NCBI GenBank assembly: GCA_035691485.1
Contig: DASSIZ010000069.1
Location: 62,001 to 126,000 of the forward strand
DNA from: Terriglobales bacterium
GTDB taxonomy: Bacteria > Acidobacteriota > Terriglobia > Terriglobales > Acidobacteriaceae
Direction: 5' to 3'
Length of the DNA: 64,000 bases
Both the position numbers and the translations under genes were made by a program. Below are positions 41,973-50,908 of this stretch, piece after piece; position 1 is the first letter of the stretch; every line of letters starts with the position of its first letter. Under the pieces are notes generated by a model. The model worked only from the letters and a program-made list of their open reading frames with translations, ran no database searches and was not told the DNA's origin.

Positions 41973-42785
41973 CTACGACCCCGAATCGATCGCCGCCAGG
42001 CGCTCGGCGATGATGGTGTACACCGAGGGATTGAAGACCAGCCCGACGTGCGTGCCGGAAACTTCGAAATCCACTTCCTGGGAACCGCTGCGACAGTAGC
42101 GCCAGTTCACGATGCCGTCGTCGCGCGTGTAGATCGCGGTCTGGACAACCGACTCCGGCAATTCCCCGCGCAGCGAATTCACGAAATCGCAGGTGCAGCG
42201 AGGCGTATAGCAGTCGGGATTCACGCGCTCTCCATGCTGGTCAAGAATGTGCCGCCGGACAACATTGGTGGCATCGAGCACTGACTGGTGCAGGACGGTG
42301 CCGCGGAAAGGGGCTCCCAGCGTGGTAACGGAAGCAACGTCTCCCGGCATCTGCGCGGCAACCGAGCGGGCAATGATGCCTCCCAGGCTGTGCCCGATCA
42401 GGTGCACTTTGGCACCCGATTGCCGACGCGCCGTTCGAATGGTCCGGGCAAGGCGATAGCGAATCAGCAGGTTGGGACACTCGGCATTGACGCCGATATT
42501 TGACAAACACGAGCGATACCCGACGCGCTGCAACCAGGAATTGAGGTGGGCGACGTAGATGTCGCTGCCCAGGAAGCCGGGAATTACGACCACTGCCGTG
42601 CCCGCACCGTGTGGTATCCCTAAACCGTAGAACACCGGCGAGGCGTGCAGCAGGAGGAGCTCGGCGCCGAACAGCGCCTCTTTCCAGATGGCAAGATTGG
42701 CATCCGCCTCGTGTTCGCGCACCCGGGGCCGGGCCGCACCGCTATCCACGGTTCTGCGTCGCGTAGCTCCTCGTCTCGTTCCCAT
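41973..42785 (-). CDS. Alpha/beta-hydrolase, lipase-like
   Basis: This 270-residue protein has an oxyanion-region VVVIPGFLGSD, a nucleophile elbow IGHSLGGI, TLGAPFRGT after it, a later Asp (IYTRDDGIVNW) and a His (SGTHVGLV). Together they give a complete Ser-Asp-His triad. The basic N-terminal 35 residues may not be translated, as a clear start is not evident. It lies on the same strand downstream of the phasin-like gene and could act on polyesters or lipids of storage granules; that link rests on position only. Confidence 0.8.
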   Translation of the reverse strand: MGTRRGATRRRTVDSGAARPRVREHEADANLAIWKEALFGAELLLLHASPVFYGLGIPHGAGTAVVVIPGFLGSDIYVAHLNSWLQRVGYRSCLSNIGVNAECPNLLIRYRLARTIRTARRQSGAKVHLIGHSLGGIIARSVAAQMPGDVASVTTLGAPFRGTVLHQSVLDATNVVRRHILDQHGERVNPDCYTPRCTCDFVNSLRGELPESVVQTAIYTRDDGIVNWRYCRSGSQEVDFEVSGTHVGLVFNPSVYTIIAERLAAIDSGS

Positions 42786-42999: not shown

Positions 43000-43929
43000 T
43001 CAGGCGCCGGCGTGCGCCGCCTGGACCTTTTCGGTCTTGCGCGATGCGGGGCGCTTGCGGCGCTCCCTCATGTTCACCACTTTTGCACCATCCCGCGGCT
43101 TCATCATGGAGGTTATGAACGCCTTCTCCGCGTCCACAAAGTTCTTGACTCCTTCGCCGGTCAGGTTGGCCATGGGTAGCAAACGCGTCGGGGTCAGCAT
43201 CTCGACGGTCTTGGTCGCCGTCTTGAGATTGACGTTCATCTGTTGTCCGATGACGTCGAGCAGCCGCTTCTGCGCCTCGATGAAGGCGTTGGTCGCCTCG
43301 CGCGCCAGCTTCGGCAGTTCCGTTTTCTTGGCGTGCTTGGCGGTGTCGGGTTTGCCTGACGTGGCCTTGGCAGTTTCCTGGGCTACGAGGTCGAGAAACT
43401 TCTTTTGCGCCTCGACGAAGGTATCCATTCCTTCGCGGGCGAGCTCGACCAGGTGCGTACCCTGATAGCCCTTGCCGGCCTTCACGTCTTCCAGCCAGGC
43501 GATGGTTTGCTTGCTCGTGATCTTCAAGAATTCCTCCTGCATGCGGATGAAGGTGTCGATACTGCGCCGCACCAGGTCGGTGGTGGCTACCAGCGGCATG
43601 GAACCGTTGACGCGCTCCTTGACGCCTTCCATGAGGATCTCGTTTTCCTTTTGCGCCATGTTGAGCAGGATTTGCTGCGCCTCCATGAAGCTGGAAGTGC
43701 CCTCGACGGCGAGTTCGGCGAGAATTGCCAAAGGTGAATTCTCCGGGTCGGATAGGCCCTCGCGCAGGTTCTTCATGGCAATCGCGTTTTGCCGCATCGC
43801 CACGTCAACCAGCACGCGCTGGGTAGCGAAAAAGCTTTCAACTCCTTGCTGCACCCACCCTGTCAGCAAAGAAAGGAAAGACGAAGGCCGGGGATGGGCG
43901 GCGGGACGGGGCTTGGTATCTCTTGGCAT
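43000..43929 (-). CDS. Six-repeat phasin-like granule protein
   Basis: This 309-residue helical protein contains six copies of a unit of about 35 residues with the pattern (E/R)G-x2-F-x2-(A/M)Q-x3-L. Examples are GVESFFATQRVLVDV, GTSSFMEAQQILLNM, SIDTFIRMQEEFLKI, GMDTFVEAQKKFLDL, ATNAFIEAQKRLLDV and GVKNFVDAEKAFITS. Classical phasins are 150-200 residues with a similar F-x-Q-x-L helical core. GGAGG lies six bases before the ATG, and a PhaR-type site sits upstream. Both ends are basic. It would coat polyhydroxyalkanoate granules. Confidence 0.75.
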   Translation of the reverse strand: MPRDTKPRPAAHPRPSSFLSLLTGWVQQGVESFFATQRVLVDVAMRQNAIAMKNLREGLSDPENSPLAILAELAVEGTSSFMEAQQILLNMAQKENEILMEGVKERVNGSMPLVATTDLVRRSIDTFIRMQEEFLKITSKQTIAWLEDVKAGKGYQGTHLVELAREGMDTFVEAQKKFLDLVAQETAKATSGKPDTAKHAKKTELPKLAREATNAFIEAQKRLLDVIGQQMNVNLKTATKTVEMLTPTRLLPMANLTGEGVKNFVDAEKAFITSMMKPRDGAKVVNMRERRKRPASRKTEKVQAAHAGA

Positions 43930-43944
43930 GATGCCTCCAATTTG

Positions 43945-43955
43945 CTGCGCTGCAG
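43945..43955. promoter_or_regulatory. PhaR operator candidate CTGC-N3-GCAG before the phasin-like gene
   Basis: CTGCGCTGCAG matches the CTGC-N3/4-GCAG consensus reported for PhaR and is 15 bases from the phasin start codon, just upstream of its ribosome site. Confidence 0.6.
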
Positions 43956-44015
43956 CATTACGATTAAACCCTAGTCTTTTCGCGGAAATGTGTCAATATG
44001 CTTCTTGAAATTTGT

Positions 44016-44024
44016 TGCACCGCA
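44016..44024. promoter_or_regulatory. Weaker PhaR half-consensus TGC-N3-GCA before phaR
   Basis: TGCACCGCA has inner half-sites of the PhaR consensus and lies 13 bases before the phaR start. Confidence 0.4.
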
Positions 44025-44037
44025 CCGCCGAGGCAAA

Positions 44038-44532
44038 ATGACAAAAACGGGAAAGGTTGTGATCCGGAAATACGCCAACCGCAGGCTCTACGACACTTCC
44101 GGCAGCCGCTACGTGAACCTGGAAGACATCGCCGCCCTCATCCGAAATGGGACCGACGTCCAGGTGATTGACGGCAAGACTGGACAGGACCTGACCCGCG
44201 TGACACTGACGCAGATCATCCTGGAGGATGCGCGCCATGAGCCCGCCGGGGTGCCGCTGGAATTGTTGCGGCAGCTGATCGTGACCTCGGACACGGTGCG
44301 GCGCGAATTCGTGAAGTCGGCAGTGGACGCTTACTCGAAACTGCAAGACGCCGTGCAGAGCGGGATCAGCGGCGTGCGCGACGCAGCGCTTTCGCCTCTC
44401 GAAGCGGTCAGCGGATTCATGCAGGCCAATCGCGGGGAATCGCGCGACGTGCAGGAGCTTCGCGAGCGTCTCGCGGAACTGGAAACCCGCGTAAACAAGC
44501 CGAAGCGGCCAAGGCGGCGGGTGAAACGCTAG
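44038..44532 (+). CDS. phaR: Polyhydroxyalkanoate synthesis regulator PhaR
   Basis: This 164-residue protein starts MTKTGKVVIRKYANRRLYDT, the PHB/PHA accumulation regulator DNA-binding domain. SRYVNLEDIAALIRNGTDVQ and VIDGKTGQDLTRVTLTQIIL complete it. The C-terminal part is helical and phasin-binding-like (LEAVSGFMQANRGES), ending in a basic stretch. PhaR represses phasin and its own gene until it binds PHA granules. It is divergent from the phasin-like gene and overlaps the WS/DGAT stop by four bases (convergent). ATG 44038 is the domain-proper start. Confidence 0.93.
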   Translation: MTKTGKVVIRKYANRRLYDTSGSRYVNLEDIAALIRNGTDVQVIDGKTGQDLTRVTLTQIILEDARHEPAGVPLELLRQLIVTSDTVRREFVKSAVDAYSKLQDAVQSGISGVRDAALSPLEAVSGFMQANRGESRDVQELRERLAELETRVNKPKRPRRRVKR

Positions 44533-46154
44533 GCAACCGCGGTTTGGTGGCGCGCCGGGGGCTGGGTCGGCGCGTCTTCAGGGGACGATGGTGTGTGCGA
44601 CGAGGGTGGCACACGCGGGGGCACGGGCGCCGTGCCAGCCACCGATTGGTCCGGACTCGGCTTCACGGCACGCTGGCGTCTCCGCTTCCGCTTTGTCGGG
44701 ATCAGGCTCTTCTTCAATTCCCCGAAGCTGGCGGCAAGCAGCTTTTCGAACTGCCCGAGATCAGGCACAGCGTTCACGTCACCGGTAAAGCCAAAAAAAG
44801 CGGTCCCGTTGTAAGTCAGGACGGCACAGTTCATGCCCATCTCCCCGCCGATAGGCACATAGGGATAACACGCGACCATCTTGTGCCCGAGCAGGTAGAG
44901 CGGCGTCTCGGGGCCGCGCACGTTGGTAAAAATCAAGTTGCAGATACTGAGCGGCAACTGGCTGACCAGCGGTCCAAGCAGAGCCTGCAGCGGGCTTGGG
45001 ATGGTGCCGAGCAAAGTGCCGGCGAAGCCTACAAACTCAGCCAGACGCGCGTTTTTCAGCTGCGTCATCTGTTCGCGCACAACCGCGATTAGTTTTTTCG
45101 GGTTCGAGATGTCCAGGGGGAGCGTGACGGGAAGAAAGGTGATGCGGTTTCCGAGTTCGCCGGAGTCTTCCTTGGCGCGAACACTCACCGGAACAACAAT
45201 GCGCAACGAACGTCCGCGAACCCGCACCCGGTGCAGTTCCGCATAGCCTCGGACGGCGGAGACAATCGTAGCCAGGGCCACGTCGTTCACGGTGGCGCCA
45301 CAGGCGTCTTTCACGGCCTTGATCTGTGCCAGCGGAATCTCGGCCCAGTGAAATTTCTGCGGCCCGCGGCATACGATATTGAACGGCAAGCGCTCGGCCG
45401 GTGCGGCAACTTCCGGCAGCAGACGGTTGAATTCGGTTGCGAGATTCACCCCGCTCTGATGATTCGTGCCGTTGGGGACGGCTTCCGCCTGCGCGCGTCC
45501 ATCGCGCGGCTTGGGGGCAGCGACGAGAGTTTCTGCAAAGCTCAGCAATTCCGAGTGCGCGCTCAGCAACTGCTGAACGGCCGAAAGAGATGATTGCACC
45601 AGGCTGTCCAGTAAGGATGGCTCTTGCCCTTCCGCGGGCGCGGCGGAACGCGGATGCGACCCGGTGCGCGACGGCGCCGGGCTGGCATCCATGAGAGCAT
45701 TCATCAGGCCGATTCCGGCCAATCCGTCGGCCAGGCAATGATGCACGCGAACGATGAGTCCGGTGCGGTTCCCAGGGAGCCCGTGCACCAGAGTCAGGTC
45801 CCATAGCGGACGCCCGTGATCCATCCTCTGGCTCAGGATGCGGGCGGCTGCCTCTTTGAACGCCGCGGTGGTACTGCGGGAGAGCCGCGTCTCCCGGATG
45901 TGATTGCGCACATCGAACTCGGGATCGTGGCTCCAAGTTGGAAGCCCAAGATTCAAGGGCGGAATCTTTACCCGCTGCCGATAGCGCGGCACGACATCGA
46001 GCTTCGTCTCGATGTAGCGCATGAACTGTTCCAAGGGAATTTCGCCGTCGAAGATGCTGGCCGACGCGATATGCAGCGGCATACCCTCGCGTTCCAGGTA
46101 CAGAAAAAGGGCGTCTCCGAACGAAAGAGAGTCGCGCTGTTTCAGTTCCGCCAT
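44529..46154 (-). CDS. Wax ester synthase / diacylglycerol acyltransferase (WS/DGAT)
   Basis: This 541-residue enzyme starts at ATG 46154 (MAELKQRDSLSFGDALFLYL). The catalytic HHxxxDG is HHCLADG at 138-144, with upstream PLWDL (116-120). The ND-type C-terminal motifs include GATVNDVALATIVSAVRGYA, GNRITFLPVTLPLDI, and NLIFTNVRGPETPLYLLGHK. It joins acyl-CoA to fatty alcohols or diacylglycerol to store wax esters or triacylglycerol. It starts ten bases after adhE, so the two are probably co-transcribed. The C-terminal 50 residues are a basic, Pro-rich tail. Confidence 0.93.
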   Translation of the reverse strand: MAELKQRDSLSFGDALFLYLEREGMPLHIASASIFDGEIPLEQFMRYIETKLDVVPRYRQRVKIPPLNLGLPTWSHDPEFDVRNHIRETRLSRSTTAAFKEAAARILSQRMDHGRPLWDLTLVHGLPGNRTGLIVRVHHCLADGLAGIGLMNALMDASPAPSRTGSHPRSAAPAEGQEPSLLDSLVQSSLSAVQQLLSAHSELLSFAETLVAAPKPRDGRAQAEAVPNGTNHQSGVNLATEFNRLLPEVAAPAERLPFNIVCRGPQKFHWAEIPLAQIKAVKDACGATVNDVALATIVSAVRGYAELHRVRVRGRSLRIVVPVSVRAKEDSGELGNRITFLPVTLPLDISNPKKLIAVVREQMTQLKNARLAEFVGFAGTLLGTIPSPLQALLGPLVSQLPLSICNLIFTNVRGPETPLYLLGHKMVACYPYVPIGGEMGMNCAVLTYNGTAFFGFTGDVNAVPDLGQFEKLLAASFGELKKSLIPTKRKRRRQRAVKPSPDQSVAGTAPVPPRVPPSSHTPSSPEDAPTQPPARHQTAVA

Positions 46155-46164
46155 GACCGTGCCC

Positions 46165-48861
46165 TCATGCCGGCAATTTTTCGCCGGTTGGTAGATGCGT
46201 GTCGCTGGACTGGGCGCCCCGACCCTGGTAAGCGCGCCAGAGCAGGTCGGACAACTCACCCATCAGCGGCATTCGCGGGTTCGATCGCCAGGAAGGATCG
46301 TCAAACGCAACCTGAATGAGATCCGGAACGGCGCGCTCAAATTCTTCTTTCGAGATGCCCATCTCCGAGATGGCACGGGGAAATCCGAGGCGATCGAGCA
46401 GTTGCTCGATAGCGCTCACCAGGTTCCTGACTTTTTCATTGATCGTGGAACCGCCCAGGCCGAGCCGGTCGGCGATGGCGGCATATTTCTTGTGCGCCAC
46501 GTACGTGCGCTGGTTCGGGGAAGGCATGAACTTGGTCGGCACGGAAGCGTTGAAGGCGATGACGTGGGGCAGCATCAGCGCGTTGGAGCGTCCGTGCGCC
46601 ACATGAAAACGGGCGCCGAAGGCGTGTGCGAGCGCATGGTTGACGCCGACCGAAGCGTTGGCGAACGCAATTGCCGCAATCGTTGCGGCATTGTGCATCA
46701 TGGTTCGCGCCTCTTCGTTCCGTGGATTCTCGAAAGCAATCGGCAGGTACTCGAACGCCAGTTGAATCGCCTGCATGGCATTGGCGTCGGTGTAGGGCGA
46801 CGCATAGATGGAAACCGCCGCCTCCAGCGCGTGCGTCAGGCAATCAATGCCGGTATCGGCGGTCAGGCCTTTGGGCATGGACATCACGAACTGCGGATCG
46901 ACGATGGCGACGTCCGGCGTTAGGGAGTAATCGGCGAGGGTCACCTTGCGCCCGCGTTGCTTGTCGGTGAGCACGGCAAAAGGCGTGACTTCGCTGCCGG
47001 TTCCGCTGGTCGTCGAGATCGCAACCAGCCGCGAGCGGTTCACTTTCTCGCTGGGAAAGCTCACCACGCGCTTGCGAAGATCCAGGAAGGGCGCGCCGAG
47101 TTGCTCCAGGTCGGCCGCGGGCGATTCGTACTTGAGCTTCATGATCTTGGCGGCATCGATCACCGCGCCGCCGCCAAGGGCAATGATCTGGTCGGGCTGA
47201 TACTGGTGGAAGTCCTGCACGCCTTGCGCGATCACACTCACTTCCGGCTCGGCATCGGGAATGATGGTCAGGTGAACGCGCGTCTCGGGTGGCAGGTGAC
47301 GTCGTACGATGTCGGCGTGCCCGATCTGTTCCAGCGCTGCATTCGTGACGATGACGGTGGAACGCGATGGGATCTGCCGCAGGTTTTGCACGGCGTTCAG
47401 GTTGAAATAAATCTCGCTCGGAATGCGGAGCCACATGTGCGCCTGAGTCCTCCGGGCAACGCGCTTGATGTTGAGATAGTGAAAAACATTGACGTTGTCC
47501 ATGGTGCTGTTGCCGCCGCCAGTGCCGCAGCCGAAGGAGAATGTCGGCACCATGTCGTTGTAAACACCGCCGAGCGCGCCAATGGAGCCTGGCGAATTGA
47601 CGATAATGCGGCCGGCATTGATCATCTCCGCAAATTTCCGCACGATCGAATCATTGGTAGAGAAGATGACGCCGGTGTGCCCGAGTCCGCCGAAGTGGTT
47701 GACCTCAACGCAGGTCTTTAGCGCCTCATCGGTTGATTTCGCGCGATAGACGGCGAGCACGGGAAATAGCTTTTCCGCCGAGAGCGGAAACTCCGGGCCG
47801 ACGCCCTGGATGGGCGCGATCAGCAGCTTGGTGTTGCCCTCGACCGGGATTCCGGCAAAGCCCGCGATGTCGGCCGCCTTCTGCCCCACGGCCAGTGGTT
47901 GCATGCACCCGGTTTTTGGGTCAATCACAGTACGCGCGAGTATCCGGGCCTCTTTATCACTGCAAAGATGCGCGCCGAGTTCAGCGAACTTCTTCAGCAC
48001 CGCGTCATAGATCTCCTCGTCAATCACGACCGTCTGTTCGGAGGCGCAGATGGTGCCATTATCAAAGGTTTTGGAAGTGATGATGTCGACCACCGCCATG
48101 TCGAGATCGGCGGTCTTCTCCAAGTAGACTGGCGTGTTGCCCGCGCCCACGCCCAAGGCCGGTTTGCCGGAACTGTAGGCCGCTTTCACCACACCGGGGC
48201 CGCCCGTGGCATCGATCAGGCCGATGCCCTTGTGGTGCATCAGGTAGTCGTTGTCCTGCAGGGTGTGCGATTCCAGGCAGGTGAAGACGCCTTCGGGCGC
48301 GCCCGCCTTGAGCGCGGCCTCATACATCACCTTGACCGCCTCGTGGCAGCAGCGCCAGGCGTTGGGATGCGGGCTGAAGACGACCGCGTTTCGCGTCTTG
48401 ATCGCCATGATGCACTTGAAGAGGACGGTCGAGGTCGGATTCGTGATCGGCGTCATCGACAGGATGACTCCGATCGGTTCTGCCACCTCCACCAGGCCGC
48501 GCTCAGGAAATTCCCGAATGGCGCCGACGGTGCGCTTGTCCTTTATGTAGTTGTAAACGAATTCCGTGGCCACCATGTTCTTGAGGGCCTTGTCTTCCAT
48601 GACCCCGAGACGCGTTTCCTCGACGGCGAGCCGCGCCAGCGGCATGGCTTGTTGGAGGCCCGCCAGTACCATCGGCTGAACAATGCGGTCTACGTCTTCC
48701 TGGGTGTAGCGGGAAAACGCGGCCGCGGCGGCGCCGGCCTGCGCCACCAGGCCATCCAGGTACGCGATTCTCTCCTGGCTGATGATTGCAGGCTTCGCAT
48801 CGGGAATTGCGGGATCACGTGGCGCCTGAGTTGGTTGGAGAACTGGGGCTGCGGTGGTCAT
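46165..48861 (-). CDS. adhE: Bifunctional aldehyde-alcohol dehydrogenase
   Basis: ATG 48861 (MTTAAPV) gives 898 residues. The first 450 are an acylating aldehyde dehydrogenase (GVILSMTPITNPTSTVLFKC, catalytic Cys in GTICASEQTVV). The second half is an iron alcohol dehydrogenase (LGGGAVIDAAKIMKL, TSGTGSEVTPFAV, and iron ligands in GIDCLTHALEA and NHALAHAFGARFHVAHG). The fusion is the AdhE type that reduces acetyl-CoA to ethanol, or other acyl-CoA to alcohols. Here it heads a two-gene unit with WS/DGAT, suggesting alcohol supply for ester storage. Confidence 0.95.
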   Translation of the reverse strand: MTTAAPVLQPTQAPRDPAIPDAKPAIISQERIAYLDGLVAQAGAAAAAFSRYTQEDVDRIVQPMVLAGLQQAMPLARLAVEETRLGVMEDKALKNMVATEFVYNYIKDKRTVGAIREFPERGLVEVAEPIGVILSMTPITNPTSTVLFKCIMAIKTRNAVVFSPHPNAWRCCHEAVKVMYEAALKAGAPEGVFTCLESHTLQDNDYLMHHKGIGLIDATGGPGVVKAAYSSGKPALGVGAGNTPVYLEKTADLDMAVVDIITSKTFDNGTICASEQTVVIDEEIYDAVLKKFAELGAHLCSDKEARILARTVIDPKTGCMQPLAVGQKAADIAGFAGIPVEGNTKLLIAPIQGVGPEFPLSAEKLFPVLAVYRAKSTDEALKTCVEVNHFGGLGHTGVIFSTNDSIVRKFAEMINAGRIIVNSPGSIGALGGVYNDMVPTFSFGCGTGGGNSTMDNVNVFHYLNIKRVARRTQAHMWLRIPSEIYFNLNAVQNLRQIPSRSTVIVTNAALEQIGHADIVRRHLPPETRVHLTIIPDAEPEVSVIAQGVQDFHQYQPDQIIALGGGAVIDAAKIMKLKYESPAADLEQLGAPFLDLRKRVVSFPSEKVNRSRLVAISTTSGTGSEVTPFAVLTDKQRGRKVTLADYSLTPDVAIVDPQFVMSMPKGLTADTGIDCLTHALEAAVSIYASPYTDANAMQAIQLAFEYLPIAFENPRNEEARTMMHNAATIAAIAFANASVGVNHALAHAFGARFHVAHGRSNALMLPHVIAFNASVPTKFMPSPNQRTYVAHKKYAAIADRLGLGGSTINEKVRNLVSAIEQLLDRLGFPRAISEMGISKEEFERAVPDLIQVAFDDPSWRSNPRMPLMGELSDLLWRAYQGRGAQSSDTHLPTGEKLPA

Positions 48862-49003: not shown

Positions 49004-50782
49004 TCACAGAACCGTGTTTATCGAAACTGAGGAGTGAGTTGCGATCGGATCGGCAGTATCGTTCCACGATGTATCCGCCGCACGCGGCACGAACGACATG
49101 GCGCGCTCGGCGAGGGCGGTGATGGTCAGGCTGGGGTTAACGCCGAGATTGGCTCCGACCACGGAGCCGTCACACACGTACATGTTCCGGTATCCGAAGA
49201 CGCGGTGGCGATGATCAACGACGCCGCGCTCGGGAGAGTCGGCGATCACGCAGCCGCCGATGCAATGTGCGGTCCCGGGAACGTTGAACAGGATTTCCGG
49301 GAGCATGCTCATGGCGGTGCCGCCGGTCAGGCGGGCGAAATTTTCGGCAAAGGCATTGGCGGCAGGAATGTAGGTAGGGACCTTGTCACCGCGGCTGACC
49401 AGGAACTTGCGAAACGGCCAGAACCAGGGACGCTGCCAGCGCATCTCGATGTGGCCGTCCAGCGCCTGCATGCAGAGCAGGATCACCGACTCGCGCGCCC
49501 ACCCCCACGGTCGAAACAGGCGCATGCTCTTCACCGGATGCCGCAGTAGCGCGCCCGCAAAGTTGGCGAGCCAGAGCAGAATCCGTCGCGGGCCGGGGCG
49601 GCCGCCGGTCAGGATGGTGGAAAGCAGGCTTATGGCGTCGGAGCCGCTCGGGTAGCGCACGGCCTCGACGTGCGTGTGCTCGTCGATGTAAATGCCCGAG
49701 CCGATGGCCACCCCTTTCGATAGGTCGTCCTTGCAGCCGGGAATTCGCACCCCGATCAGCGATTCGGAGTTGGTGCGGACGTGCTTGCCGACCTTGTCGC
49801 TGATGCGCGGAAGCGAACCGCCGTCCTTCAGTCGAAACATCAGCTCCATGGTCCCGAGAGAGGAGGCGGCGAAGACCAAGCCGCGGCAGGTGAACCGGTG
49901 CGGCCGGCGACGCAGCCAAGCGGTGGAGCACACTGTATGCACTTCGTATCCATCACTGCCGTCGGCGGCGCCAAGGGGCTTGACGTCGACAACCTGCGTC
50001 TCGGCAAAAATACGGGCGCCGTGTTTCTCCGCCAGGTAGAGATAGTTCATGTCCAGGGAATTCTTGGCGCCATGACGGCAGCCCATCATGCAGCCGCCGC
50101 AGGCGGTGCACGTAGTGCGCTCGGGGCCTTCTCCGCCCAGATAAGGATCGGGCACGGTCTTGCCCCCCTGGTCGCCTTCCTTGCCCTGAAAGATCGCAAC
50201 GCTGGTGCGATAAAAACTCTGCCCCACGCCCGCAGCCTCGGCGGCGCGCTGCAGCAGGCGGTCCGCCGGGCCCAGAATCCGGTTCTCGGTTACCCCAAGC
50301 ATCGCGGAAGCAGCATCGTAGTGGCGCGCCATTTCCCTCTTCCAATCCGCAAGGTCGCGCCACGACCCGGAGTCCCAAATCTTGTCGGGGGGGCGCAGGA
50401 GGGTGGCGGCATAGGTGATGGAACCCCCGCCGACAGCGCAACCGTGCAGGATGGTGACGTGGCGGAAGAAGCGCATGTTGAAGAAGCCGCGCAGCGCCAG
50501 CTTGGGCCGCCAGAACCAGCGGTGCAGCGACCAACTCGTCTCCGGATAATCGGCGGCGGTCCAGCGCCGTCCCATTTCCATGACGGCGACGCGGTAGCCC
50601 TTCTCGGTCAGCCGGTGGGCACTGACACTACCGCCGAAGCCGGAGCCGATCACGATAAAGTCGAAATCGAATTGTGGGGTGCCGGCCGCCATCTCAGCCG
50701 AACTATACTCGTCCTGCGGCGGCGCGAAGCGAGCGATTCGCTGTGGCCGGCGCTTATTCCCATTGTGGTTTAACTCAGCCAT
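49004..50782 (-). CDS. GMC-family FAD oxidoreductase (cholesterol-oxidase-like)
   Basis: The start is uncertain: ATG 50782 gives 592 residues, ATG 50692 begins 30 residues later, and a frame to 50902 would read through the tRNA and is rejected. Seen are the FAD Rossmann motif FDFIVIGSGFGGSVSAHRL, GCAVGGGSITYAATLL, FeS-like cysteines (CTACGGCMMGCRHGAKNS), RTNSESLIGVRI, and the C-terminal GGCVIADSPERG-(x)n-VCDGSVVGANLGVNPSLTI. These fit the GMC branch near cholesterol oxidases. The substrate is probably a sterol or hopanoid-like alcohol, but this is not shown. Confidence 0.85.
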   Translation of the reverse strand: MAELNHNGNKRRPQRIARFAPPQDEYSSAEMAAGTPQFDFDFIVIGSGFGGSVSAHRLTEKGYRVAVMEMGRRWTAADYPETSWSLHRWFWRPKLALRGFFNMRFFRHVTILHGCAVGGGSITYAATLLRPPDKIWDSGSWRDLADWKREMARHYDAASAMLGVTENRILGPADRLLQRAAEAAGVGQSFYRTSVAIFQGKEGDQGGKTVPDPYLGGEGPERTTCTACGGCMMGCRHGAKNSLDMNYLYLAEKHGARIFAETQVVDVKPLGAADGSDGYEVHTVCSTAWLRRRPHRFTCRGLVFAASSLGTMELMFRLKDGGSLPRISDKVGKHVRTNSESLIGVRIPGCKDDLSKGVAIGSGIYIDEHTHVEAVRYPSGSDAISLLSTILTGGRPGPRRILLWLANFAGALLRHPVKSMRLFRPWGWARESVILLCMQALDGHIEMRWQRPWFWPFRKFLVSRGDKVPTYIPAANAFAENFARLTGGTAMSMLPEILFNVPGTAHCIGGCVIADSPERGVVDHRHRVFGYRNMYVCDGSVVGANLGVNPSLTITALAERAMSFVPRAADTSWNDTADPIATHSSVSINTVL

Positions 50783-50818
50783 GCCTGGCGTTGTTCCCGG
50801 CGTTGATAATAAAAATGC

Positions 50819-50908
50819 TGGCGGAGAGAGTGGGATTCGAACCCACGTTACCCTTTCGAGTAAACACGCTTTCCAAGCGTGCGCCTTCAGCCACTCGGCC
50901 ATCTCTCC
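50819..50908 (-). tRNA. tRNA-Ser(GGA)
   Basis: This is a 90-base cloverleaf with acceptor GGAGAGA/TCTCTCC. The anticodon stem CACGC/GCGTG has loop TTGGAAA (anticodon GGA), a long serine-type variable arm follows, the T-arm is GTGGG-TTCGAAT-CCCAC, and CCA is encoded. It reads UCC/UCU codons. Confidence 0.96.

Follow-up and report, generated by a model that had tools for sequence, protein, structure and literature searches.

A six-repeat phasin-type protein beside neutral-lipid genes in a Terriglobales bacterium: a probable lipid-droplet coat under putative PhaR control

The window (the whole 64,000-nt stretch of Terriglobales DNA analysed here) encodes a helical repeat protein that is probably a PhaR-controlled surface protein of the phasin type, coating a neutral-lipid (triacylglycerol, TAG, and/or wax-ester) droplet rather than a polyester granule. 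No polyhydroxyalkanoate (PHA) synthase was found and a wax ester synthase/diacylglycerol acyltransferase (WS/DGAT) is in its place, so this soil acidobacterium has probably put a kit known from plastic granules to new use on droplets of oil or wax. The features of the locus are:

41,973–42,785, minus strand: alpha/beta hydrolase with a GHSLG motif, encoded downstream of the phasin gene in the same orientation; triacylglycerol lipases are its nearest solved chains
43,000–43,929, minus strand: six-repeat phasin-like protein; six long predicted helices and a basic C-terminal tail
43,943–43,957, no strand assigned: perfect palindrome TGCTGC-N3-GCAGCA, containing CTGCNNNGCAG; kept in 21 of 21 aligned homologues
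44,014–44,026 (extent approximate), no strand assigned: second, weaker TGC-N3-GCA site, upstream of the -35; position conserved in homologues
44,038–44,532, plus strand: phaR, with a PHB_acc_N DNA-binding domain (Pfam E 2.9e-27); transcribed divergently from the phasin gene
44,529–46,154, minus strand: WS/DGAT; HHxxxDG intact; over the TIGR02946 cut-off; nearest solved chain 6chj_A
46,165–48,855, minus strand: AdhE-type bifunctional aldehyde/alcohol dehydrogenase; over the NF010378 cut-off
49,004–50,830, minus strand: GMC oxidoreductase of the cholesterol-oxidase type; over the NF058674 cut-off

Six helical repeats and their kinship with phasins

The phasin-like ORF (window 43,000–43,929, minus strand) is intact, opening with an ATG at 43,929 and encoding 309 aa. 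An upstream ATG that overlaps the putative operator extends the ORF in many homologues. The same ATG is out of frame in the window, so the annotated start at 43,929 is likely the correct one. In most homologues (e.g. L002, L016 and L018) the operator palindrome holds an in-frame ATG (MLQCSK... or similar), a likely cause of miscalled gene starts there.

Repeat detection confirmed that this ORF repeats one helical unit six times in tandem, as had been predicted, with the core Phe at residues 33, 81, 127, 171, 216 and 264. The original prediction put the unit at about 35 residues; the spacing is instead 44–48 residues, with a common core of ∼34. Its F-x2-(A/M)Q-x3-L core is found in strict form in R2–R5 only: R1 carries T for A and V for L, and R6 carries E for Q and I for L. 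Similarity among the repeats is far beyond chance. Six spaced windows located in a blind search had a mean pairwise BLOSUM62 score of 33.9, against -5.9 for the best of 60 residue shuffles and -7.5 for the best of 120 shuffles that preserve a 7-, 11- or 18-residue phase. With leave-one-repeat-out profiles, R1, R2, R4, R5 and R6 scored on average well over shuffles; R3 was weak, with a mean of 6.4 bits against a shuffle maximum of 5.5.

Both AlphaFold models made were of low confidence. AlphaFold2 predicted an all-helical protein (mean pLDDT 43.7) with helices at residues 17–59, 66–107, 111–150, 157–190, 204–245 and 253–276, and amphipathicity was clearly over that of shuffles in helices 4 and 5 only. 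The basic tail that follows (residues 277–309) has a net charge of +8. A search of solved structures found no relative of the six-repeat protein, and a plasmid search with the phasin or L010 gave no match.

Homologues came from 60 relatives, from 13 loci of a genome collection, all acidobacterial, and from 396 genomes of the phylum. Among the 60 relatives the protein occurs in eight further genomes at 52–80% identity, with two copies in G001, and G009 gave one distant match. A profile search of the 396 acidobacterial genomes added one more six-repeat member (G317), together with more distant proteins of ∼200 aa in other families. We aligned 21 distinct Terriglobales homologues, and the repeat pattern was kept rather than lost: a pooled repeat profile found six copies in every one.

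The distant ∼200-aa proteins consist of four units, as judged by the repeat profile and by reading of the sequences, and four units can likewise be read in the PHA-operon phasins of G009, G293 and G249. The G293 phasin, encoded in a PhaP-PhaE-PhaC operon, is over the Pfam Phasin_2 cut-off (27.9 vs 24.9 bits). In profile–profile alignments, window residues ∼23–183, the first four repeats, were collinear with the four-repeat phasins (99.1%) and with the PHA-operon PhaPs (97.6%; hhalign of the window family, E 4.6e-12); the hhalign controls reached probabilities of at most 17% for 60 column-shuffled profiles and 38% for the reversed PHA-phasin profile. Because its first four repeats align to phasins, the window protein can be described as related to phasins but longer by two units and a basic tail.

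By sequence comparison, then, the window protein is a remote phasin. It reaches the gathering score of no Pfam phasin family, with 14.3 bits against the 24.9 set for Phasin_2 (PF09361); Phasin_2 matches at E up to 0.1 were obtained for 14 of the 21 homologues (best E 0.00059). PhaE (PF09712) membership was rejected, the matches being sub-threshold only. The name 'phasin-like' given by the original prediction is borne out by the PhaP profile alignment, the divergent phaR and the PhaR palindrome in all aligned promoters. Repetition had also been presented as a novelty, set against a single helical domain in known phasins; here the prediction falls short, since the ∼200-aa relatives have four copies of the unit, and a single-helical-domain phasin was rejected as the related form. 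Six copies are an extension of four, and repetition as such is nothing new. The wider spread of the four-unit form suggests that the direction of change was from four to six.

The phaR gene and its putative operator

The phaR gene and the phasin gene are transcribed divergently in the window and in most loci, and every relative with the six-repeat protein has phaR in its genome. The perfect 15-base palindrome occurs once in the window. It lies between the -10 and the ribosome-binding site, just before the latter, at the same promoter place in all 21 homologues, and TTGACA, a -10-like element and, upstream of the -35, a TGC-N3-GCA-type site are present in all 21 aligned promoters. The contained sequence CTGCNNNGCAG is the reported PhaR site of R. 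sphaeroides (PMC12542648). With the weaker second site, the layout of the window promoter mirrors that of the R. eutropha phaP1 promoter, which has sites directly upstream of the -35 and around the transcription start (PMC12849132). The phasin gene accordingly has the two marks of a PhaR-controlled gene, a PhaR site in the promoter and phaR in the genome. From these sequence features we infer that PhaR represses it.

No PhaR palindrome was found before the WS/DGAT gene, so only the phasin promoter looks PhaR-controlled. Before the four-repeat phasins near WS/DGAT in other acidobacterial families, neither CTGC-N3-GCAG nor the exact palindrome was found. Further perfect PhaR palindromes were considered as a regulon in 11 genomes and rejected; they were mostly chance-like, with counts equal to a backwards control in some genomes. 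A second perfect PhaR-type palindrome was noted in G035 (L109 9781–9795; G035:C1:5184780–5184794), where it overlaps the start of another alpha/beta hydrolase ORF.

The PHB_acc domain (PF05233) was rejected as a means of separating PHA-type from lipid-type PhaR, as neither PhaR type of Terriglobales has it and it scores weakly in the four-repeat lipid loci. In a quick PhaR tree, which omitted rows with an unmatched motif and among them the window's own PhaR, the Terriglobales lipid-locus PhaRs grouped with PHA-locus PhaRs, apart from the four-repeat lipid-locus PhaRs. By this tree, the pairing of PhaR with WS/DGAT is found in two PhaR lineages.

Neutral-lipid genes and the search for a PHA synthase

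All nine genomes that carry the six-repeat protein, but not G009, have WS/DGAT (TIGR02946). Its gene adjoins phaR in the window's genus, G018 and G317, lies ∼7–12 kb from the phasin gene in G029, G031 and G035, and is on a separate contig in G013. A lipase-like hydrolase gene is beside the phasin gene in nearly all loci and follows it in most. Catalytic motifs were intact in 31/31 WS/DGAT and 39/39 hydrolase ORFs of the fetched loci, some of which overlap. The enzyme looked for as a sign of neutral-lipid storage, a WS/DGAT with intact HHxxxDG, is therefore present.

An AdhE-type gene adjoins that for WS/DGAT in the window and in several relatives; the enzyme could supply alcohol for ester synthesis, presumably as its role in the module. 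A cholesterol-oxidase-type GMC oxidoreductase gene is near WS/DGAT in many related loci, where a role with steryl esters or in alcohol recycling is possible. The stored lipid may be TAG or wax ester, and the AdhE- and cholesterol-oxidase-type neighbours do not settle which. In G001 the module (phasin, PhaR, WS/DGAT and lipase) was seen twice, on contigs C96 and C253 (L011 and L003); since the draft genome comprises 330 contigs and is 4% contaminated, one of the copies may be foreign.

Two locus types were distinguished in the phylum: in one, PhaR accompanies PhaP-PhaE-PhaC (G009, G293 and G249); in the other, which lacks PhaC, it accompanies a phasin, WS/DGAT and lipase. Families f19, f79 and f30 have four-repeat phasins with PhaR, WS/DGAT and a similar hydrolase. 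Counting WS/DGAT as present at over 150 bits, we found PhaR in 57 of 58 genomes with WS/DGAT vs 29 of 338 without it (396 acidobacterial genomes); by genus, PhaR accompanied WS/DGAT in 35 of 36 (Fisher p 2e-22, kinship uncorrected). The two genes are within 8.2 kb of each other in 19 genomes of 7 families, and in the next closest pair on one contig they are separated by 70 kb. G266 (L139) and G109 (L148) have a PhaR-PhaC locus and, elsewhere, WS/DGAT, so that the association is partly indirect in these two.

Searches for a PHA synthase covered the nine close-relative genomes with the protein, the window's own among them (all 97–100% complete, mostly draft assemblies): PF07167 gave no match and TIGR01836 no PhaC-like match, apart from a 19.9-bit fragment in G018. 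The same models do detect PhaC in G009. G317 had no TIGR01836 match, and the four-repeat lipid-type genomes had none except short weak ones in G327 and G411. A highly diverged PHA synthase could have escaped these searches; as far as they go, the genome lacks the enzyme that would mark a PHA-granule system. The original prediction placed the protein on polyester granules, which as a multivalent phasin it might bridge. Such a location is unlikely in this organism, given that the searches gave no PHA synthase and that WS/DGAT and a lipase-like hydrolase are what the locus encodes.

The protein could still be an ordinary PHA-granule phasin if the synthase had been missed by the searches or the assembly and WS/DGAT were a neighbour by coincidence. 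PhaR and phasins are classically PHA proteins, the operator is a PHA-type PhaR site, and close PhaR relatives are found in PHA operons. We nonetheless consider this explanation improbable, given that PhaC was detected in none of nine nearly complete genomes by models that succeed in G009, and that linkage of PhaR to WS/DGAT recurs in 7 families. Somewhat less probable again is that the PhaR/phasin circuit was kept while the protein itself acts on DNA or membrane, as a nucleoid linker or membrane-lipid binder with the tail as its main functional part. Helix amphipathicity is modest, the tail is basic in all 21 homologues (net charge +6 to +13), and PhaF has a basic DNA-binding tail; on the other hand, the window protein's tail is short and without the AAKP-type repeats described for PhaF, and the locus holds genes for neutral-lipid synthesis and a lipase-like enzyme.

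A generic amphipathic or coiled-coil repeat protein, with no phasin kinship and a resemblance due to composition, would explain why all Pfam cut-offs are missed and why even the reversed PhaP alignment retains some probability. We give this very little credence, because the forward alignment is far over both shuffled and reversed controls and is collinear across four repeats, and because gene neighbourhood and operator concur with a phasin identity.

A proposed droplet coat and its known counterparts

In the droplet-coat model that we prefer, neutral lipid would be made by WS/DGAT, and the droplet surface would be covered by the six helices, each repeat contributing one lipid-contacting helix. 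The basic tail may touch DNA, and stored lipid would be mobilised by the lipase-like hydrolase. When there is no droplet, PhaR would occupy the palindrome, covering the transcription start, and keep the phasin gene repressed; as droplets form, PhaR would be drawn to their surface and phasin would be made in proportion to that surface. We infer the droplet binding, the droplet sensing by PhaR, the lipid stored and the role of the tail. That droplets draw PhaR away is proposed by analogy with PHA, which acts in this way on PhaR in other bacteria, and with lipid droplets in Rhodococcus, which do so on MLDSR.

A wider proposal, on which we are evenly balanced, is that Acidobacteriota moved the PHA-granule circuit to neutral-lipid droplets, perhaps on more than one occasion in view of the two PhaR lineages. 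PhaR there would sense TAG or wax-ester droplets, and the Terriglobales would coat them with a phasin whose lipid-binding helices have grown in number from four to six.

As a rule, PHA granules and lipid droplets are regarded as distinct inclusions, each with a coat and regulators of its own. Here the coat and sensor of the former co-occur with neutral-lipid genes, without a detectable PHA synthase. If the proposal is right, it describes a lipid-droplet system in a phylum for which we found none described, an inclusion sensor with a changed ligand, and a marker protein for acidobacterial lipid droplets. The question whether PhaR recognises polyester alone, or the surface of any hydrophobic droplet, would also become directly testable. 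For annotation it is a warning: PhaR with a phasin is not proof of PHA production.

A published survey noted a putative phasin gene on a WS/DGAT scaffold in Pseudomonadota and described neutral-lipid accumulation in Acidobacteriota as unexplored (PMC10351704). Among the open-access papers searched, we found no description of the arrangement of phasin with WS/DGAT.

The closest known counterparts are the Phasin_2 or class III PHA-operon PhaPs (G293 L098, G009 L100). The window protein shares with them the helical repeat unit, collinear over four copies, as well as the divergent phaR and the PhaR palindrome in the promoter. It differs in having six repeats rather than four, a basic tail, and a score under the family cut-off, and its locus differs in having no PhaE or PhaC gene beside it, with no PhaC found in the genome and WS/DGAT and lipase instead. 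Pseudomonas putida PhaF (PMC5658603) likewise combines a helical granule-binding part with a basic C-terminus, but the PhaF tail carries eight AAKP-like tandem repeats, whereas the window protein has its repeats in the helical part and a short tail. In Rhodococcus jostii, lipid droplets sequester MLDSR, the regulator of the major droplet protein MLDS (PMC5504291). The likeness to that system is in proposed function, that of a droplet protein under a droplet-sequestered regulator: MLDS and MLDSR form one operon, whereas the window's regulator and phasin are divergent and the regulator, unlike that of Rhodococcus, is a PHB_acc_N protein.
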